45,543 nt of DNA, from contig JACPPO010000039.1 in assembly GCA_016190945.1 (NCBI GenBank), positions 1 to 45,543 on the forward strand. Reading direction: 5' to 3'. The position numbers were made by a program, and so were the translations under genes. Within the stretch, counting starts at the first letter, position 1. The number at the start of each line of letters is the position of its first letter. Shown piece by piece: positions 866 to 15,186 of the stretch. This DNA comes from Acidobacteriota bacterium (GTDB taxonomy: Bacteria > Acidobacteriota > Vicinamibacteria > Vicinamibacterales > UBA2999). Below the pieces are notes generated by a model. The model was not told where the DNA came from. It made no database searches and was given only the letters and a program-made list of their open reading frames with translations.

Positions 866-1809
866 CCTTTCAGTGCCTGCTTCATCAGTTCGGCGGCGGC
901 CGTGTATGGGTCGACCTCGCGCGCGGCGATGCGGTCGATGACGCGATCCAGTTCGCCGGCAGGCAGGAGGCGCTCGATGTGCTGCAGGAACCGGTGTGAC
1001 AGTAACTCGCGCAGGCGATATTCCTGGCGCGTACGCGTGCGGCGGCCGGACGCCTTCATCGAGTGCGCCTGAAACTCCCCGATCGCCGCCCGGAGTGCCG
1101 GGATCCCCTCTCCCGTCGTGGCGATTGTCTTCACGATCGGCGGCCGCCATTCCTCCGGCGCGGCCGCTTGCAGCGCCTGACTTGCCGCAATCGTCTGCAC
1201 GAGCCGGTCTGCGCCCTCACGATCGGCCTGGTTGACGACAAAGATGTCCGCAATCTCCATGATGCCCGCCTTGAGCGCCTGCACTTCGTCGCCACTGGTC
1301 GGCACCAGCACGACGACGGACACGTCCGCGGTTCCCGCGATATCGATTTCCCCCTGCCCGACACCCACGGTCTCGATAACGATCGTGTCCTTGCCCGACG
1401 CGTCCAGGATCACGGCGACGTCGCCGGTGGCGCGCGCGAGACCGCCAAGATGGCCGCGCGTCGCCATGCTGCGAATAAACACGTCGCTGTCGGAAAAGTG
1501 ACGGCCCATTCGTACGCGATCCCCCAGGACCGCGCCGCCGCTGAACGGACTCGTCGGATCGACGGCGATCACGCCCACCTTCTTGCCGTCCTTCCGAAGC
1601 TCTCCGGTGAGGCGATCGACGAGCGTGCTCTTGCCGGCCCCCGGCGGTCCTGTGATGCCAATGAGCTGCGCGCGCCCGGTCTTGGGAAAGATGGCCCGCA
1701 GCAGCTCCACGCCCGCCGGTGAGTCGTCTTCGACAAGCGAAATGGCGCGCGCTATCGCCCGCGCGTCACCCGCGAGCACGCCTTCGGCCAGGGTGGAGTC
1801 AGGCGGCAA
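862..1809 (-). CDS. meaB: Methylmalonyl-CoA mutase-associated GTPase MeaB
   Basis: This is a G3E-family P-loop GTPase that protects methylmalonyl-CoA mutase and gates delivery of its B12 cofactor. The Walker A motif is GPPGAGKST, after LIGITG. AVDPTSPFSGGAVLGDR and the switch region RSMATRGHLGG are typical of MeaB/ArgK. NQAD stands where NKxD gives guanine specificity. The open frame extends up to TTG 1860, but that would put about 60 nt inside the upstream dehydrogenase. The family normally starts close to the conserved LAEGVLAGD, so the start is probably TTG 1809, overlapping the dehydrogenase stop, or GTG 1779. No strong ribosome-binding site settles this. The gene sits between an acyl-CoA dehydrogenase and the epimerase fusion. 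The mutase subunits are about 34 kb away at 35541-37596. Confidence 0.93.
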   Translation of the reverse strand: MPPDSTLAEGVLAGDARAIARAISLVEDDSPAGVELLRAIFPKTGRAQLIGITGPPGAGKSTLVDRLTGELRKDGKKVGVIAVDPTSPFSGGAVLGDRVRMGRHFSDSDVFIRSMATRGHLGGLARATGDVAVILDASGKDTIVIETVGVGQGEIDIAGTADVSVVVLVPTSGDEVQALKAGIMEIADIFVVNQADREGADRLVQTIAASQALQAAAPEEWRPPIVKTIATTGEGIPALRAAIGEFQAHSMKASGRRTRTRQEYRLRELLSHRFLQHIERLLPAGELDRVIDRIAAREVDPYTAAAELMKQALKG

Positions 1810-2941
1810 GGAGCTGACGCGCGATGACCAGCCGCTGGATCTCGCTGGTGCCCTCGCCAATCGTGGTGAGCTTCACGTCTCGAAAGAACTTCTCCGCCGG
1901 GTAGTCCTTGATGAATCCGTAGCCACCATGGATCTGGACGCCGTCCTCCGCGACCCGCACGGCAATCTCACTCGAGTAGAGCTTGGCCATGGCCGCCTCT
2001 AAGGTCGTCCGCCGTCCCTGGTCCTTCATTGAGGCCGCGCGATACGTCAGCAGCCGCGCCGCCTCGATGCGGCCCGCGTTCTCCACCAGCTTGGCACGAA
2101 TGCTCTGAAAGGCGCCGATCGGCTGCCCGAACTGCCTGCGCACGAAGGCGTAGTCGCGCGCCGCTTCGTGCGCTCCCTGCGCGAGGCCCACGGCCAGCGC
2201 GGCGATGCCGATCCGGCCGGCGTCCAGCACCTGCAGCGCGTTGATGAATCCCTGTCCTTCAACTCCCAAGAGCTGCGACGCCGGGACGCGGCAGTTCTCG
2301 AAGATGACCTCGCTTGTCTCGCTCGCGCGCATCCCGAGTTTGTCCTCCTTCTTGCCGGCGCGGAAGCCCGGCGTTCCACGCTCGACGATGAACGCCGAGA
2401 TGCCGCGGCTTCCCTTTCCTCGGCTCGTCACCGCCATCACGACGATAAGGTCTCCCGACCGACCGTGCGTGATGAATTGCTTCGTCCCGTTGATCACCCA
2501 GCAGTCGCCTTCGCGCACCGCGCTCGTTCGCACTGCCGCCGCGTCGCTGCCCGCGGACGCTTCGGTGAGACCCCAGGCCGCCAGCTTCCGACCCGTCGCG
2601 AGCGGTACCAGATAGCAGCGCTTCTGCTCCTCGGTGCCGAAGGCGGCAATATGCGCGGCGCCCAGACCGTTATGCGCCGCCACCGACAGGCAGATCGACG
2701 GATCGACGCGGGCCAGCTCTTCGATGCAGATGCAGTAGTCGACAAAGGACATGGCCGCGCCGCCATATTGTTCCGGGAACTGGATGCCCATCAGGCCCAG
2801 CGAGGCGAGCTTCGGCGTGAGTGCCGGTGAATACTGCTGCGCCTCGTCCCATTCCCTGACATGGGGCCGGATCTCGCTCTCGGCAAATTCGCGGATGCCG
2901 CGCCGCAGCAGCGCCTGATCGTCAGTTAACTGCAGATTCAT
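1799..2941 (-). CDS. Acyl-CoA dehydrogenase (FAD), short/branched-chain type
   Basis: This is a 380-residue flavoprotein dehydrogenase oxidising an acyl-CoA thioester to the 2-enoyl-CoA with electron-transfer flavoprotein as acceptor. The three-part ACAD fold is complete: N-terminal helices (LTDDQALLRRGIREFAESE), the middle beta domain with LTEASAGSDAAA and WVINGTKQFIT, and the C-terminal helices with RRQFGQPIGAFQ and IHGGYGFIKDYP. The catalytic base is the Glu of GEGTSEIQR (about E363). I chose ATG 2941; an ATG two codons upstream (2947) is equally open. The gene heads the minus-strand set with meaB and the epimerase fusion, suggesting branched-chain amino-acid or propionyl-CoA catabolism. 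The exact chain-length preference cannot be read from sequence. Confidence 0.93.
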   Translation of the reverse strand: MNLQLTDDQALLRRGIREFAESEIRPHVREWDEAQQYSPALTPKLASLGLMGIQFPEQYGGAAMSFVDYCICIEELARVDPSICLSVAAHNGLGAAHIAAFGTEEQKRCYLVPLATGRKLAAWGLTEASAGSDAAAVRTSAVREGDCWVINGTKQFITHGRSGDLIVVMAVTSRGKGSRGISAFIVERGTPGFRAGKKEDKLGMRASETSEVIFENCRVPASQLLGVEGQGFINALQVLDAGRIGIAALAVGLAQGAHEAARDYAFVRRQFGQPIGAFQSIRAKLVENAGRIEAARLLTYRAASMKDQGRRTTLEAAMAKLYSSEIAVRVAEDGVQIHGGYGFIKDYPAEKFFRDVKLTTIGEGTSEIQRLVIARQLLAA

Positions 2942-2966
2942 GACCATTCATGGCCCGCACCGATCG

Positions 2967-2972
2967 TATCAT
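2967..2972 (+). promoter_or_regulatory. Putative -10 element (TATCAT) for a leaderless start
   Basis: TATCAT lies 5 nt before the ATG at 2978. That spacing would put the transcription start on or next to the start codon. No Shine-Dalgarno sequence is present. The divergent dehydrogenase starts only 36 nt away, leaving little room for a conventional leader. This is one of several similar sites in the window. Confidence 0.4.
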
Positions 2973-2977
2973 TCGGT

Positions 2978-3460
2978 ATGCACCCGATCCGCCTTGTGTT
3001 GTTCGCCACGCTTCTCACCGCCGCAACGTCGGTGCCCGCCTTCGCGGACGCGACGATCTTTGTTGGCAGCACCGCCACGCCGGCGAACCGGCCCGTGAAG
3101 GGGCTGGCGCTTGGCGTCGGGCTCCTGGTGGTTGGCTTCGAGTTCGAATTCGCCGATACCGGCGAAACGGTGGAGGAAGCCGCGCCCTCGCTCAGGACCG
3201 GGATGGGCAACGTGCTGCTGCAGACGCCGATTCCGGTCGCGGGGATGCAGTTCTATCTGACGACGGGCGGCGGCCTGTATCGCGAGCGCCTCGGCACGCG
3301 TCAGGAAACGCAGCTTGGCGTGAACACGGGCGGAGGCGCGAAGATCTCGCTGCTGGGCCCGATCCGGGCGCGGCTCGATTACCGCATCTTCAAGCTACGC
3401 GGCGAGCCGCTCCACTCGGTAGTGCACCGCGTCTACGCAGGATTGAATCTGGCCTTTTGA
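2978..3460 (+). CDS. Small outer-membrane beta-barrel-like exported protein, unknown function
   Basis: 160 residues. The N-terminus (MHPIRLVLFATLLTAATSVPAFA) is a Sec signal peptide with likely cleavage after AFA near residue 23. The mature part alternates hydrophobic and polar residues and is rich in Gly and aromatics. Examples are LGVGLLVVGFEFEFADTG, YLTTGGGLYRERLG, a predicted strand LDYRIFKLRG, and a C-terminal YAGLNLAF ending in Phe. That terminal pattern is typical of outer-membrane barrels recognised by the Bam machinery. The length would suit a small barrel of about eight strands. It is transcribed divergently from the acyl-CoA dehydrogenase and converges on the next gene across an inverted-repeat element. 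No specific ligand or family can be named. Confidence 0.78.
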   Translation: MHPIRLVLFATLLTAATSVPAFADATIFVGSTATPANRPVKGLALGVGLLVVGFEFEFADTGETVEEAAPSLRTGMGNVLLQTPIPVAGMQFYLTTGGGLYRERLGTRQETQLGVNTGGGAKISLLGPIRARLDYRIFKLRGEPLHSVVHRVYAGLNLAF

Positions 3461-10473: not shown

Positions 10474-12792
10474 ATGAACCTCCCTGGGCCACACGGCGCG
10501 CCCCACGGGCGTCGGGTCGTCATCCGGGTCGCCCGGCAGGCGGGCCTCATCGTCCTTTTCGTCGTCGCCGCGCTGCTCGGCACGCTGAGCGGCGTCCTTT
10601 TCGCCTACGCCGACGATCTGCCCCAGATCAGCGCCCTCGACAGCTACCAGCCCAGCACGATCACCCGCCTGTTCGCGCGCGACGGGCAGGTCATTGGCGA
10701 ATTTGCCATCGAGCGACGCGTGGTGATTGGCTACGACGACATCGCGCCGGTGCTGCGCCAGGCGATCCTGGCCAGCGAGGACGCCGACTTCGAGCAGCAC
10801 TTCGGCCTCAGTGTGTCCCGCACCATCATCACCGCCGTCAGAGACGTGCTCTACCGACAGCGGGCGGGCGCGAGCACGATCACGCAGCAGGTGGCCCGCA
10901 TGCTGTTTCTGTCCGACTACGTGCGCGGCGGCGTCTTCGAGCGCTCTTTCGAGCGGAAGATCAAGGAGGCGATCGTTGCCGTCCAGCTCGAGAAGCGCTA
11001 CACCAAGCGCGAGATCTTCACCTTCTACGCGAACCACGTCACGATGGGCCATGGCGCATATGGCGTTGAGGCGGGCGCGCAGCTGTACTTCGACAGGTCC
11101 GCGCGGGACCTGACCGTGGAAGAGGCCGCCGCCATCGCGGCCATCGTGCAGACTCCCGCGCGCCTGAGTCCCTTCGTAAACCCGGACCAGGCGCTCGCGC
11201 GGCGCAACAACTACGTGCTGCCGCGAATGGCGGACGAGGGTTTCATCTCGCGTGAGGAAGCCGAAGAGGCCGCCGCACGTCCGCTGGTGGTGCGCGGTCA
11301 GCCGGCGCCGGACCGGTCGATTGCGCCGTACTTCGCGGAAGAGATCCGCAAGGCGCTCGAGCAGAAGTACGGAGCGGACGCGCTCTACCAGGCCGGGCTG
11401 CGGGTGCAGACCACGCTGGACGGCCAGCTTCAGGAGGCGGCCAATCGCGCGATCGATCGCGGATTGCGGCGTATTGACAAACGCCGGAGCGGTTACCGGA
11501 AGCCGGAGCGCAATGTGGTCGCGGAAGGGCAAGCGGTGAGCCGGTTCACGACGGCCCGCTGGGCGCAGCCGATGGGTGAAGGCGACGTCGTGCCGGCCCT
11601 CGTCACGGCCGTGCCCCGGCCAGGCGCCGGGACCGCGCGTATCCGTATCGGGCCGCACGACCTGGAGCTGCCGGCCACGGCGTTCTCCTGGACGAGGCGC
11701 ACCTCGGCGGCCGACCTGTTCCGCGTGGGCGACCTGATCGAGGTGGAAATCCGCACGGTGCGCGGCGGCGCGCCAGAGACCGTGGCCCTCGACCAGCCGC
11801 CACTGCTCGAGGGCGCGCTCGTGGCCATCGACAACCACAGCGGCGAGATCCGCGCGATGGTGGGCGGATTCAGCTTCGACCGGAGCAAGTTCAACCGCGC
11901 CACCCAGGCGCGCCGCCAGCTGGGCTCAACCTTCAAGCCGATCGTCTACACGACCGCCATCGATCGCGGCTTCACGCCGGTGTCCGTCTTTGTCGACGAA
12001 CCGGTGTCATTCGAGGCGGGACCCAACCAGCCTCCGTACGCGCCGATGAACTACGACCGCACATTTGCGGGCCCCGTCACGCTGCGCCGCGCGCTGGAGC
12101 AGTCCCGCAACATTCCCGCGGTGAAGGCGATGCTGGAGGTCGGCCCGCCGCAGGTCGTCGACTATGCGGCGCGGTTCGGCTTACAGGGAAATTTCCAGCC
12201 CTATCTGTCTCTGGCGTTGGGGGCGGCCGAGGCGACGCTGGTGGACGCAACCGCCGCCTACTCGGTGTTTCCGAACCAGGGCGTGCGGATGATGCCGTAC
12301 TCGGTGGTGACGATCGCGGATCGCGAGGGCAACATTCTTGAGCAAGACCGGCCGCAGGCGCACGAGGCGATCCGCGCCGACACCGCGTTTGTGATGACGA
12401 ACCTGCTGCGTGGGGTCATCCAGCGCGGAACGGGTGCGGCCGCCGCCTCCCTCGACTGGCCGCTGGCGGGCAAGACCGGCACGGTGGACGACTACACCGA
12501 CACCTGGTTCATCGGCTTCGATCCGAATATCACCGTTGGGGTATGGGTGGGCTACGACGAAAAAAAGCCGATCGGCGGCAGCAGCAACGGCGAGACCGGG
12601 GCCACGGCCGCCTTGCCGATCTGGATCGACTTCATGCGGGCGTATATCGACACGCGCGGCGATCGGAAGAACCCGCCGGAATTCGACGCTCCCGGCAACA
12701 TCGCGTTCGTGACGCTCGATTCCGGCATCACCGAAGCCTTCATCAACGGTACGCAGCCGCAGACCATCGACCGCGCGCCGGCGTCGCAGTAA
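10474..12792 (+). CDS. mrcA: Bifunctional penicillin-binding protein 1A (glycosyltransferase/transpeptidase)
   Basis: 772 residues. A cytoplasmic tail and one membrane helix (about 22-45) precede the GT51 glycosyltransferase. That domain has SEDADFEQHFG with catalytic Glu near 102, and GASTITQQVARMLFL. The enzyme polymerises lipid II in the periplasm and cross-links the peptides. The transpeptidase has the serine motif STFK (S485, K488), SRN (544-546) and KTG (667-669, in GKTGTVDDYTDTWF). An OB-like insert between the domains (about 340-440) is the usual PBP1A feature. All catalytic residues are present. It is divergent from dnaK with 188 nt between and faces a large inverted repeat downstream. 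I picked ATG 10474 because the tail length fits the family. Confidence 0.96.
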   Translation: MNLPGPHGAPHGRRVVIRVARQAGLIVLFVVAALLGTLSGVLFAYADDLPQISALDSYQPSTITRLFARDGQVIGEFAIERRVVIGYDDIAPVLRQAILASEDADFEQHFGLSVSRTIITAVRDVLYRQRAGASTITQQVARMLFLSDYVRGGVFERSFERKIKEAIVAVQLEKRYTKREIFTFYANHVTMGHGAYGVEAGAQLYFDRSARDLTVEEAAAIAAIVQTPARLSPFVNPDQALARRNNYVLPRMADEGFISREEAEEAAARPLVVRGQPAPDRSIAPYFAEEIRKALEQKYGADALYQAGLRVQTTLDGQLQEAANRAIDRGLRRIDKRRSGYRKPERNVVAEGQAVSRFTTARWAQPMGEGDVVPALVTAVPRPGAGTARIRIGPHDLELPATAFSWTRRTSAADLFRVGDLIEVEIRTVRGGAPETVALDQPPLLEGALVAIDNHSGEIRAMVGGFSFDRSKFNRATQARRQLGSTFKPIVYTTAIDRGFTPVSVFVDEPVSFEAGPNQPPYAPMNYDRTFAGPVTLRRALEQSRNIPAVKAMLEVGPPQVVDYAARFGLQGNFQPYLSLALGAAEATLVDATAAYSVFPNQGVRMMPYSVVTIADREGNILEQDRPQAHEAIRADTAFVMTNLLRGVIQRGTGAAAASLDWPLAGKTGTVDDYTDTWFIGFDPNITVGVWVGYDEKKPIGGSSNGETGATAALPIWIDFMRAYIDTRGDRKNPPEFDAPGNIAFVTLDSGITEAFINGTQPQTIDRAPASQ

Positions 12793-12840
12793 CCGACGCC
12801 GGCTGCCGCGAAGCGGACCCGCCGGACTTACACCGGAGTT

Positions 12841-12997
12841 CAGTTGTGTTGATCATGGCGCGGCGGGTCCTGTCGCCGGGTTGCCCCAGCCGTCCTCGGC
12901 GCCAAAACCATGACCACGGGTGAGGCGCCTGCGCGGCGGCTGGGGCGGCCCCACCCGGCGCCACCCGCTCGCGCCCGTGACGCTATCAACACAAGTG
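12841..12997. repeat. 157-nt multi-stem inverted repeat (candidate structured RNA, terminator or MITE-like element)
   Basis: Reading inward, five paired blocks stack around a 20-nt loop (12904-12923). TTGTGTTGAT (12844-12853) pairs with 12985-12994. GGCGCGGCGGGT (12857-12868) pairs with 12963-12975 with one bulged base. GCCGGGT (12875-12881) pairs with 12953-12959. GCCCCAGCCG (12883-12892) pairs with 12937-12946. GGCGCC (12898-12903) pairs with 12924-12929. That is about 45 base pairs in one hairpin. The outer block extends two more pairs to 12841 and 12997 past one mismatch. An alternative pairing competes with it: GGACCCGCCG (12815-12824) with CGGCGGGTCC (12861-12870). It lies between the convergent PBP1A and small membrane protein genes and contains no credible ORF. 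Confidence 0.8.
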
Positions 12998-13014
12998 ATC
13001 CCCGGATCCCCGGG

Positions 13015-13233
13015 TTAGGGATGCGGATGCTGGTGCGCGCAGACGACGCGCATGAGCGCCACCACCGCGATTGTCAGCCCGACTGCGGCGCCCACGCCAA
13101 TCAGGACCGCCATCGGGAAGAAGAAAACCGCGAAGATTAAGGGAATGAGCAGGATCCCATCCAGCGCCAGTATCCACCAGGCGCCGTCGGAACTGACGAG
13201 ATCGTCCAGGGAATGGAGCAGCGCGCCAATCAT
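13015..13233 (-). CDS. Small two-helix membrane protein of unknown function
   Basis: 72 residues. A very strong ribosome-binding site (AAGGAGG, about 9 nt before the ATG) makes this a real gene despite its size. Two hydrophobic helices are visible: about 17-39 (GAWWILALDGILLIPLIFAVFFF) and about 42-63 (VLIGVGAAVGLTIAVVALMRVV). They are joined by a very short turn, suggesting a hairpin in the inner membrane. The C-terminus is His/Pro-rich (CAHQHPHP) and could bind a metal, which is inference. It is not obviously in an operon. Downstream lies the large inverted repeat that separates it from the convergent PBP1A gene. Confidence 0.72.
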   Translation of the reverse strand: MIGALLHSLDDLVSSDGAWWILALDGILLIPLIFAVFFFPMAVLIGVGAAVGLTIAVVALMRVVCAHQHPHP

Positions 13234-13339: not shown

Positions 13340-15064
13340 TCAAGGAAAAAGGGCCGGCGCCACGCGGCGCCGGGTAGCCTGCTCAAAGGCGTAGGCGAGT
13401 GCGATGAGCCGAGGCTCACTGCACGCGGCGCCGCTGAAGCTCACGCCGAGCGGGGCCTGCCTGGCGTCGAAGCCCTCGGGGAACGGCGGTGACGGTGCGT
13501 TCGGCACCATCGCGAACGGAACCATGACGGTGGGATAGCCGGGCCTGGCGGCGATGGCCGCACCCATCAGGCCGGCAAACAGGAGGGCGTCGAGCCGGTG
13601 GGTTCTTACCGCTTCGTCGATCCCATGCGTGGCGCTGAGAAACAGGTCTTTTCGCAGGTCGGCTTCGTAGCGCGGCCGGTCCATTTCGACATCCATCTCG
13701 TCCGAGATGTCGAGATTCTCCTGGCCGTACTTGAGCGTCCCGGCGCTCTCATGATCAAGATTCCACCGTCGAAGCTCGGTAAGCGTCTTCACGGGCGCGG
13801 TGGGACCGAGCGAGGCGAGCCACGCGTTGAAATCGCGCTTCATCCCGTACTTGAGGACGACCGAACAGCCGCCGTCCTTCCCTTTGGCGCCTTCCAGGCC
13901 GGCGCAGATGTCCCACGCCAGGAAGTTCCTGGCCGGATCCGTGTCAAGGACGCTCGGAATGTCGGCCGGATCGATCACGACGGCGCCTTGGGCGACCAGC
14001 GTGGCAATCGCCTCATTCATTGCCTGACGCTGATCGGCGTCGAGACCCCCCTGTGTTTCACCGGTGCCGGGCGATGCAACGCGGTCGTAAAAGAACGCGC
14101 GCGGGATGCCGATGCGCGCCCCCTTGAGCGCGCCGGCGTCGAGGAACCGCGTGTAGTCGTGGCCGGGAGGAGGTGAGCAGGCTGGGGTGGCCGCGTCGTT
14201 CGGATCGCGTGAGGCGCCCTCCATGGCGCCCAGCAGCGTCGCCGCGTCCGCGACCGAGCGGGCCATCGGACCGGCCGTGTCCCGATCGGACGCAATGGGA
14301 ATGATTCCGTACCGGCTGACCCGGCCCACGGTCGGCTTGATGCCAACGAGCATATTCTGATTCGCGGGGCTGAGGATCGAGCCGGACGTCTCGGTACCGA
14401 CATTCGCGACCCAGAAACTGGCGGCAGTGCCGACACCGGAACTCGAGCCGCCGGTCGTCAGCGCCGGACGCCCGTCGGCCATCATCCAGCGCGGATCGCG
14501 GCGCGGGTCGTACGGGTTCATCCCGTATCCGGTCAGGCTGTTGTAGTTGGCCGGCATGCCGACGGTCACCCAGTTGGCGAGCTCGGTCATCTGCGTCTTG
14601 GCGATGATGATGGCGCCGGCCTCGCGCAGGTTCCTCGCCACGGTTGCCTCGTACGGCGGCACCAGCTCCGCAAACGCGAGCGCACCGCCGGTCGTCGGCA
14701 TGTCGGTGGTATGGATGTTGTCCTTCAGGGCGATCGGGATCCCATGGAGCGCCCCGCGGATTTTCCCCGCAGCGCGCTCCCGATCCCGCGCGTCCGCCTC
14801 CTCGAGCGCCCGTCGATTGACGGCGATGACCGCATTCAACCGATCTTCGTACAGCGCAATGCGCGTGAGCGATTGCTGGACAAGTTCCCGGGAGGTGGTC
14901 CGACCCTGCTCCATGGCCTGACGCATCGCGGCAATGGTCGCTTCGACCACGGAGAACGACGGGGGCGCTTGAGCGGAGATTGTGAGCGCCGCGACGCCGC
15001 ACAGAACCGCGAGCGAAAGCCGTCGACGGCTACTCGAGGACACAGGCGAAGCTCGCCGCCGCAT
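13340..15064 (-). CDS. Exported amidase-signature family hydrolase
   Basis: About 574 residues from ATG 15064; a GTG at 15130 is also in frame. The N-terminus has an Arg-rich start followed by LSLAVLCGVAALTISAQA, a signal peptide (possibly Tat-like because of the RRR), so the enzyme is exported. The amidase-signature Ser-cisSer-Lys triad is complete: Lys in GIPIALKDNIHT, cis-Ser in TTGGSSSGVGTA, and the nucleophile in GTETSGSI. PTVGRVSRYGIIP and DTAGPMARSVADAA are also typical. The family hydrolyses amide bonds, and relatives act on peptide amides, glutamyl or aryl amides. The substrate here cannot be assigned. It lies about 120 nt downstream of prfB on the same strand. Confidence 0.9.
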   Translation of the reverse strand: MRRRASPVSSSSRRRLSLAVLCGVAALTISAQAPPSFSVVEATIAAMRQAMEQGRTTSRELVQQSLTRIALYEDRLNAVIAVNRRALEEADARDRERAAGKIRGALHGIPIALKDNIHTTDMPTTGGALAFAELVPPYEATVARNLREAGAIIIAKTQMTELANWVTVGMPANYNSLTGYGMNPYDPRRDPRWMMADGRPALTTGGSSSGVGTAASFWVANVGTETSGSILSPANQNMLVGIKPTVGRVSRYGIIPIASDRDTAGPMARSVADAATLLGAMEGASRDPNDAATPACSPPPGHDYTRFLDAGALKGARIGIPRAFFYDRVASPGTGETQGGLDADQRQAMNEAIATLVAQGAVVIDPADIPSVLDTDPARNFLAWDICAGLEGAKGKDGGCSVVLKYGMKRDFNAWLASLGPTAPVKTLTELRRWNLDHESAGTLKYGQENLDISDEMDVEMDRPRYEADLRKDLFLSATHGIDEAVRTHRLDALLFAGLMGAAIAARPGYPTVMVPFAMVPNAPSPPFPEGFDARQAPLGVSFSGAACSEPRLIALAYAFEQATRRRVAPALFP

Positions 15065-15186
15065 TCGTGCCGCCGGTACCGTCCGACCTGGCGAGCTGGC
15101 CACAAGGGCAGGGCGGACGCGTGCCGGCACCGATCATTAGTGAGCCGTTGAACGACATCATGATTGCCACGCCCTGCGTATATACC

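Follow-up and report, generated by a model that had tools for sequence, protein, structure and literature searches.

A long hairpin of 157 nt (positions 12,841 to 12,997) lies between convergent genes in the window, a 45,543-nt contig of an acidobacterial genome, and holds no open reading frame. What kind of element is it? The first-pass annotation had offered three answers: a new RNA class, a bidirectional terminator or a palindromic mobile element.

The hairpin and its surroundings

Folding of the sequence showed that the nested hairpin with its 20-nt loop (12904-12923, flanked by two GGCGCC arms) is real and slightly larger than described, spanning 173 nt (12833-13005). The whole element has 68 predicted pairs and a predicted energy of -111.8 kcal/mol, and the sub-span 12841-12997 alone has 62 pairs and -101.5 kcal/mol. 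Compared with dinucleotide shuffles, the stretch 12800-13010 had a minimum free energy of -124.6 vs -95.35 +/- 4.75 (z -6.2), and 0/200 shuffles were as low. The same test with DNA parameters gave z -6.05, and the claim that the structure is far beyond chance thus held with RNA or DNA parameters. The placement between convergent genes was likewise borne out by gene calling, with PBP1A on the plus strand and a small gene on the minus strand. The features are as follows.

10474..12792, plus strand: class A penicillin-binding protein (PBP1A; Transgly and Transpeptidase domains, Pfam PF00912 and PF00905), the upstream neighbour, with its stop at 12792
12800..12826, no strand: short REP-like repeat, a separate family from the hairpin (DNA search of relatives)
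12833..13005, no strand: whole palindromic element (arms, core and loop), one copy of the family; fold z about -6, absent from the same junction in relatives
12833-12853/12985-13005: outer inverted repeat of 21 nt (inverted-repeat match)
12833..12860, no strand: left outer arm, which evolves fast and is the complement of its copy's right arm (arm comparison across copies)
12861..12971, plus strand in the model's orientation: conserved core, model R1, 111 positions, CGGCGGGTCCTGTCGCCGG...CCGGCGCCACCCGC (alignment A1)
12904..12923, no strand: apical loop of 20 nt, the core's most variable part (copy alignment and fold)
12972..13005, no strand: right outer arm (arm comparison across copies)
13015..13233, minus strand: small convergent gene of about 72 codons, its stop adjoining the element's right end (gene caller)
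13340..15130, minus strand: amidase gene past the small gene (Pfam PF01425)

Sequence alignable to the small gene also lies next to PBP1A in six relatives (G010, G012, G013, G004, G003 and G022). The REP-like repeat has 90-96% matches in G014 (many, partly in arrays with a spacing of 40-80 nt), G022 and G003, and it recurs elsewhere in the window's own genome at one site with one mismatch and five sites with two.

A second pairing (12815-12824 with 12861-12870) had been seen as competing with the main fold and likened to attenuators and switches. It does exist as sequence, because the separate REP-like repeat at 12800-12826 adjoins the hairpin and supplies the partner strand. However, no conserved competing fold was found: the best structure using it reached -103.5 kcal/mol compared with -124.6, a penalty of 21 kcal/mol, and an equivalent helix of at least 7 nt was missing in 90 of 108 family copies. 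An attenuator, switch or riboswitch was therefore rejected.

A dispersed family with empty sites

A DNA search revealed a second copy in the window's own genome and gave hits in 30 of 59 relatives, some of them to the adjoining REP-like repeat alone. Thirty-six copies were aligned (alignment A1, mean column identity 78%). The window core scored 116.5 bits against model R1, and the covariance model of the 111-nt core located copies in 25 of the 59 relatives, the richest of which has 22. The copy count proposed in the first-pass annotation thus showed that the hairpin is one copy of a dispersed repeat family, not a single-copy RNA gene. G016 has about 20 copies at unrelated sites, their cores being near-identical. 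Nearly all copies (99/108) overlapped no gene called by a simple gene caller. Their flanking genes were convergent in 33 cases, tandem in 48 and divergent in 7, a significant excess of convergent over divergent settings (33:7, p = 4e-5). Between tandem genes, the orientation of the element relative to its neighbours was 30:18 (p = 0.11).

The window junction is occupied differently in relatives. The six relatives named above keep PBP1A and the convergent small gene and lack the element. About 2 nt separate the two stop codons in G013; in G012 the spacer is partly masked as N, yet it is about 150 nt too short for the element when compared with the window; and in G004 a different palindrome takes the element's place. 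At the locus of one G010 copy, the genes directly abut in G000 and G013, while the place is taken by a CACAGAGG-type palindrome in G012, by a very long palindrome in G004 and by other sequence in G026; the G012 and G004 palindromes are both strong and unrelated to the element. Another G010 locus (L051) was uninformative as an empty site, its right flank not being adjacent in G026. Presence and absence at orthologous sites, a hallmark of MITE-like elements, was accordingly observed at two loci. Since the same junctions hold different palindromes or none, it appears that gene junctions in these bacteria repeatedly receive palindromic elements of different kinds, this family being one of them.

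Two palindromes were also noted individually. One of about 300 nt (L318 1775-2156, G004:C94) lies in a stretch with a predicted energy of -225 kcal/mol, and its two flanking genes abut in the window's genome. The other, a cousin-like palindrome TTCAGCGGGACTGACGC...GGGGCCCCGCTGA (L314 ~1187-1302, G010:C13), adjoins a G010 copy and has related stretches in G026 and G004.

Comparison of the copies revealed a conserved core and variable outer arms. The arms differ among copies of one genome yet match their partner inside each copy: in G036, L159 carries CGGAATGCAGAGCG on both sides and L160 carries CGACCGGTGAAGCG on both sides. When all copies are taken, the flanks of a copy have a longest inverted match of 5.56 vs 4.93 +/- 0.09 with shuffled partners; for G016 alone the excess was not significant (5.32 vs 5.15 +/- 0.25), and individual G016 copies show matching arms. 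Arm subfamilies recur over genera and families, and the element is inverted to its very ends, so that terminal inverted repeats are present. We considered whether the G016 arms were a pre-existing target palindrome and rejected this: all exact arm matches belong to element copies or deletion derivatives, and the arms are therefore part of the element. They often start where the flanking genes end, at the stop codons. In one copy near a contig end (L089, G016:C163:1-237), the flanks form an inverted repeat that extends tens of nt past the arms, either as a large inverted duplication or as an assembly artefact.

The core in G016 is far better conserved than the adjoining arms, which counts against a mobile element, because it would not be expected from plain decay after insertion. 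Constraint or gene conversion acting on the core, or alteration of the arms at insertion, may account for this contrast. The apical loop is missing or shorter in other copies, or holds other hairpins. REPs of the CCTTCGAC...GGGCG type are nested within the apical region at L208:3350-3497 and L024:17-166, and a CGGGTCCCCAGCGCGTGA...TCACGCGCTGGGGGCCCG palindrome is inserted in the 5' stem at L069:1499-1728 and in L067 (G047).

The distribution of the family was patchy, with 14 of 297 genomes positive in a phylum sample. Three copies were present in G010 and none was detected in its congener G026 with the covariance model. An exact-pattern scan of GTDB genomes, in which the 3' motif has a background of 6%, recovered cores bearing both conserved motifs (5' and 3') under the labels Krumholzibacteriota (7/9 hits) and Methylomirabilota (nzgw236, 6/9 hits), as well as Omnitrophota, Aminicenantes, Rokubacteriota and Dehalococcoidia, in two actinobacterial assemblies and in a closed chromosome. 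These cross-phylum carriers are mostly MAGs, whose labels may in part be mistaken, and a genome with one hit counts for less than one with several copies. Core conservation apparently spans genera, families and phyla. For MAGs labelled Acidimicrobiia (K_Offshore; VFZH records L195, L197 and L198), the public label seems wrong, as their apparent counterparts (e.g. G007) are placed in the window's acidobacterial family. Plasmid and phage collections gave no match to the element, and two pattern matches in viral contigs were dismissed as chance, as the 3' half was missing. A literature search on the core sequence and on dispersed repeats in Vicinamibacteria returned nothing relevant, and the family is apparently undescribed.

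RNA, terminator or mobile DNA

Covarying substitutions had been proposed as the mark of an RNA. The covariance model showed that the base pairs are well kept among homologues, and 11 of 22 consensus pairs show compensatory changes. However, template switching in DNA replication also yields compensatory changes (PMC8794818), so covariation in a long palindrome is no proof of RNA and the proposed test does not discriminate here. A more specific signal is wobble asymmetry, as an RNA under selection tolerates G-U pairs, which the strand opposite the transcribed one shows as A-C. Single stem mismatches under symmetric scoring comprised 187 G-U and 182 A-C, and Watson-Crick-defined columns 6 G-U and 11 A-C; there is no strand preference in the wobble mismatches, which is good but not conclusive evidence since the counts are not independent. 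With no excess of G-U over A-C, the covariation gives no argument for a stranded RNA, and the proposal of a new RNA class was not supported. Rfam contained no matching family, either at the gathering score or with E up to 10. A structured RNA (a regulatory RNA or 3'-UTR element) made from one strand and spread by selection on its function would fit the compensatory changes, the strongly conserved core segments outside the paired columns and the greater conservation of the core than of the arms in G016. We nevertheless consider it improbable, as neither strand shows the wobble excess, the orientation between tandem genes is not significantly biased, the sites are not kept among relatives, G010 has three copies and its congener G026 none detected, Rfam is silent and template switching accounts for the same compensatory pattern.

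The excess of convergent settings, the frequent start of G016 arms at stop codons and the very stable hairpin would all suit copies that function, whatever their origin, as bidirectional terminators or stabilizers of mRNA 3' ends, an action also proposed for REPs (PMC3733652). A GC-rich hairpin without a U-tract is not an intrinsic terminator, however: a U-tract followed the hairpin in only 2 of 108 copies per strand, which equals chance (shuffled expectation 2.4), and the intrinsic kind of bidirectional terminator was thus rejected. Moreover, the same junction in relatives manages without the element, many copies occupy tandem intergenic regions and the convergent bias is equally explained by avoidance of promoters. 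A terminator or stabilizer function is therefore very unlikely as the general explanation; the bias itself is consistent with either a passive refuge or a terminator-like effect.

The third option of the first-pass annotation, a palindromic mobile element, agrees with the many scattered copies, the empty orthologous sites and the patchy distribution, and a mobilizer was sought. Being palindromic, intergenic and dispersed, the element resembles a typical REP/REPIN whose mobility depends on a RAYT (Y1 transposase) encoded in the same genome. RAYT-like genes occur in 42 of the 59 relatives, and in G036 one is 1.2 kb away from a copy. Yet no Y1_Tnp was found in the carriers G005, G017 and G051 (97% complete, 5-7 copies each), nor in G000, and a model scan of 30 RAYT loci yielded no copy at a significant score. 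A RAYT was thus rejected as the necessary driver. The element also far exceeds the 20-40 bp of a REP and has no consistent GTAG/CGTC tag; a GTAG lies ahead of the core only in the majority of G016 copies and in some from G007, and the window copy and most of the rest lack it. Taken together, these findings make a RAYT-driven REP/REPIN highly improbable.

Target-site duplication was not evident either, as flanking direct repeats showed no overall excess (5.05 vs 4.89 +/- 0.09); single candidates were seen, e.g. GCTAAGC at L081. No recurrent neighbour gene emerged, only ordinary families in 3 genomes each. One contig labelled Gemmatimonadaceae (L260) has a core on either side of a Tn5-like transposase gene (1468-2898, plus strand), the two cores being inverted and directly adjacent to it (1270-3008); the gene encodes 476 aa with Tnp_DNA_bind and DDE_Tnp_1 domains. 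This arrangement could be taken to mean that the element is the solo or deleted end of a Tn5-like (IS4-family) insertion sequence. The transposase is absent from the element-rich relatives, however, its sole match being 29% identical and located in G033, a genome itself without a model hit. The insertion sequence was therefore rejected as the autonomous partner, and an origin of the family as its end is extremely unlikely; the single contig is most simply explained by a passenger insertion.

It is thus likely that the element is a dispersed non-coding palindromic DNA repeat that spreads between genes as a non-autonomous mobile element, consisting of a conserved core of ~110 nt and arms of 20-35 nt. 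Movement would most likely take place as a single-stranded or cruciform DNA hairpin, on which a putative enzyme, supplied by the host or by another element, may act in trans. Copies would survive mainly at the 3' ends of genes and at convergent junctions, where they do the least harm, and arm complementarity might be kept by hairpin-templated (quasi-palindrome) copying or template switching.

Relation to known palindromic repeats and significance

The element resembles the ERIC/IRU, RUP, Correia/NEMIS and other MITE-like repeats (reviewed in PMC2229807), which are ~100-200 bp long, mostly intergenic and dispersed, and form a long stem-loop without a transposase of their own; in size, copy number and intergenic location it conforms to this type. 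It is unrelated to them in sequence and hosts as far as searched, has no detected target-site duplication, and differs in a core conserved over genera, families and apparently phyla with arms that vary by copy. With REP, REPIN and BIME sequences it shares a palindromic, extragenic and dispersed nature, a frequent location downstream of genes and a presumed hairpin-based mobility, but these REPs are 20-40 bp long with GTAG or CGTC tags (PMC3733652, PMC8266576, PMC3116915), whereas the element is 140-180 bp long, lacks a consistent tag and occurs in genomes without a detected RAYT. It is neither a short tagged hairpin nor, in the loci scanned, a repeat that flanks a RAYT. The CGTC-tagged REPs are likewise dispersed palindromes with no dedicated transposase known, but have 8-9-bp stems and the CGTC tag and differ in length, sequence and hosts (PMC3733652). 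The best reading is a new family of the known REP/ERIC/MITE-like non-autonomous kind that prefers convergent junctions.

A bolder reading, which we regard as doubtful, is that the core, conserved across bacterial phyla, is copied faithfully while the outer arms are rewritten in each copy into new matching inverted repeats. If true, the element would spread without a RAYT, a transposase acting on terminal inverted repeats or target duplication, by a mechanism that templates the flanking arms at the insertion or repair step. For RNA-discovery screens the element is a warning that in a long DNA palindrome covariation alone is not evidence of RNA. A cross-phylum family of long palindromes, apparently undescribed, is added to what is known of little-studied bacteria from soil, groundwater and the sea, and the covariance model and precise empty sites provide a means to ask how such palindromes move without a RAYT.
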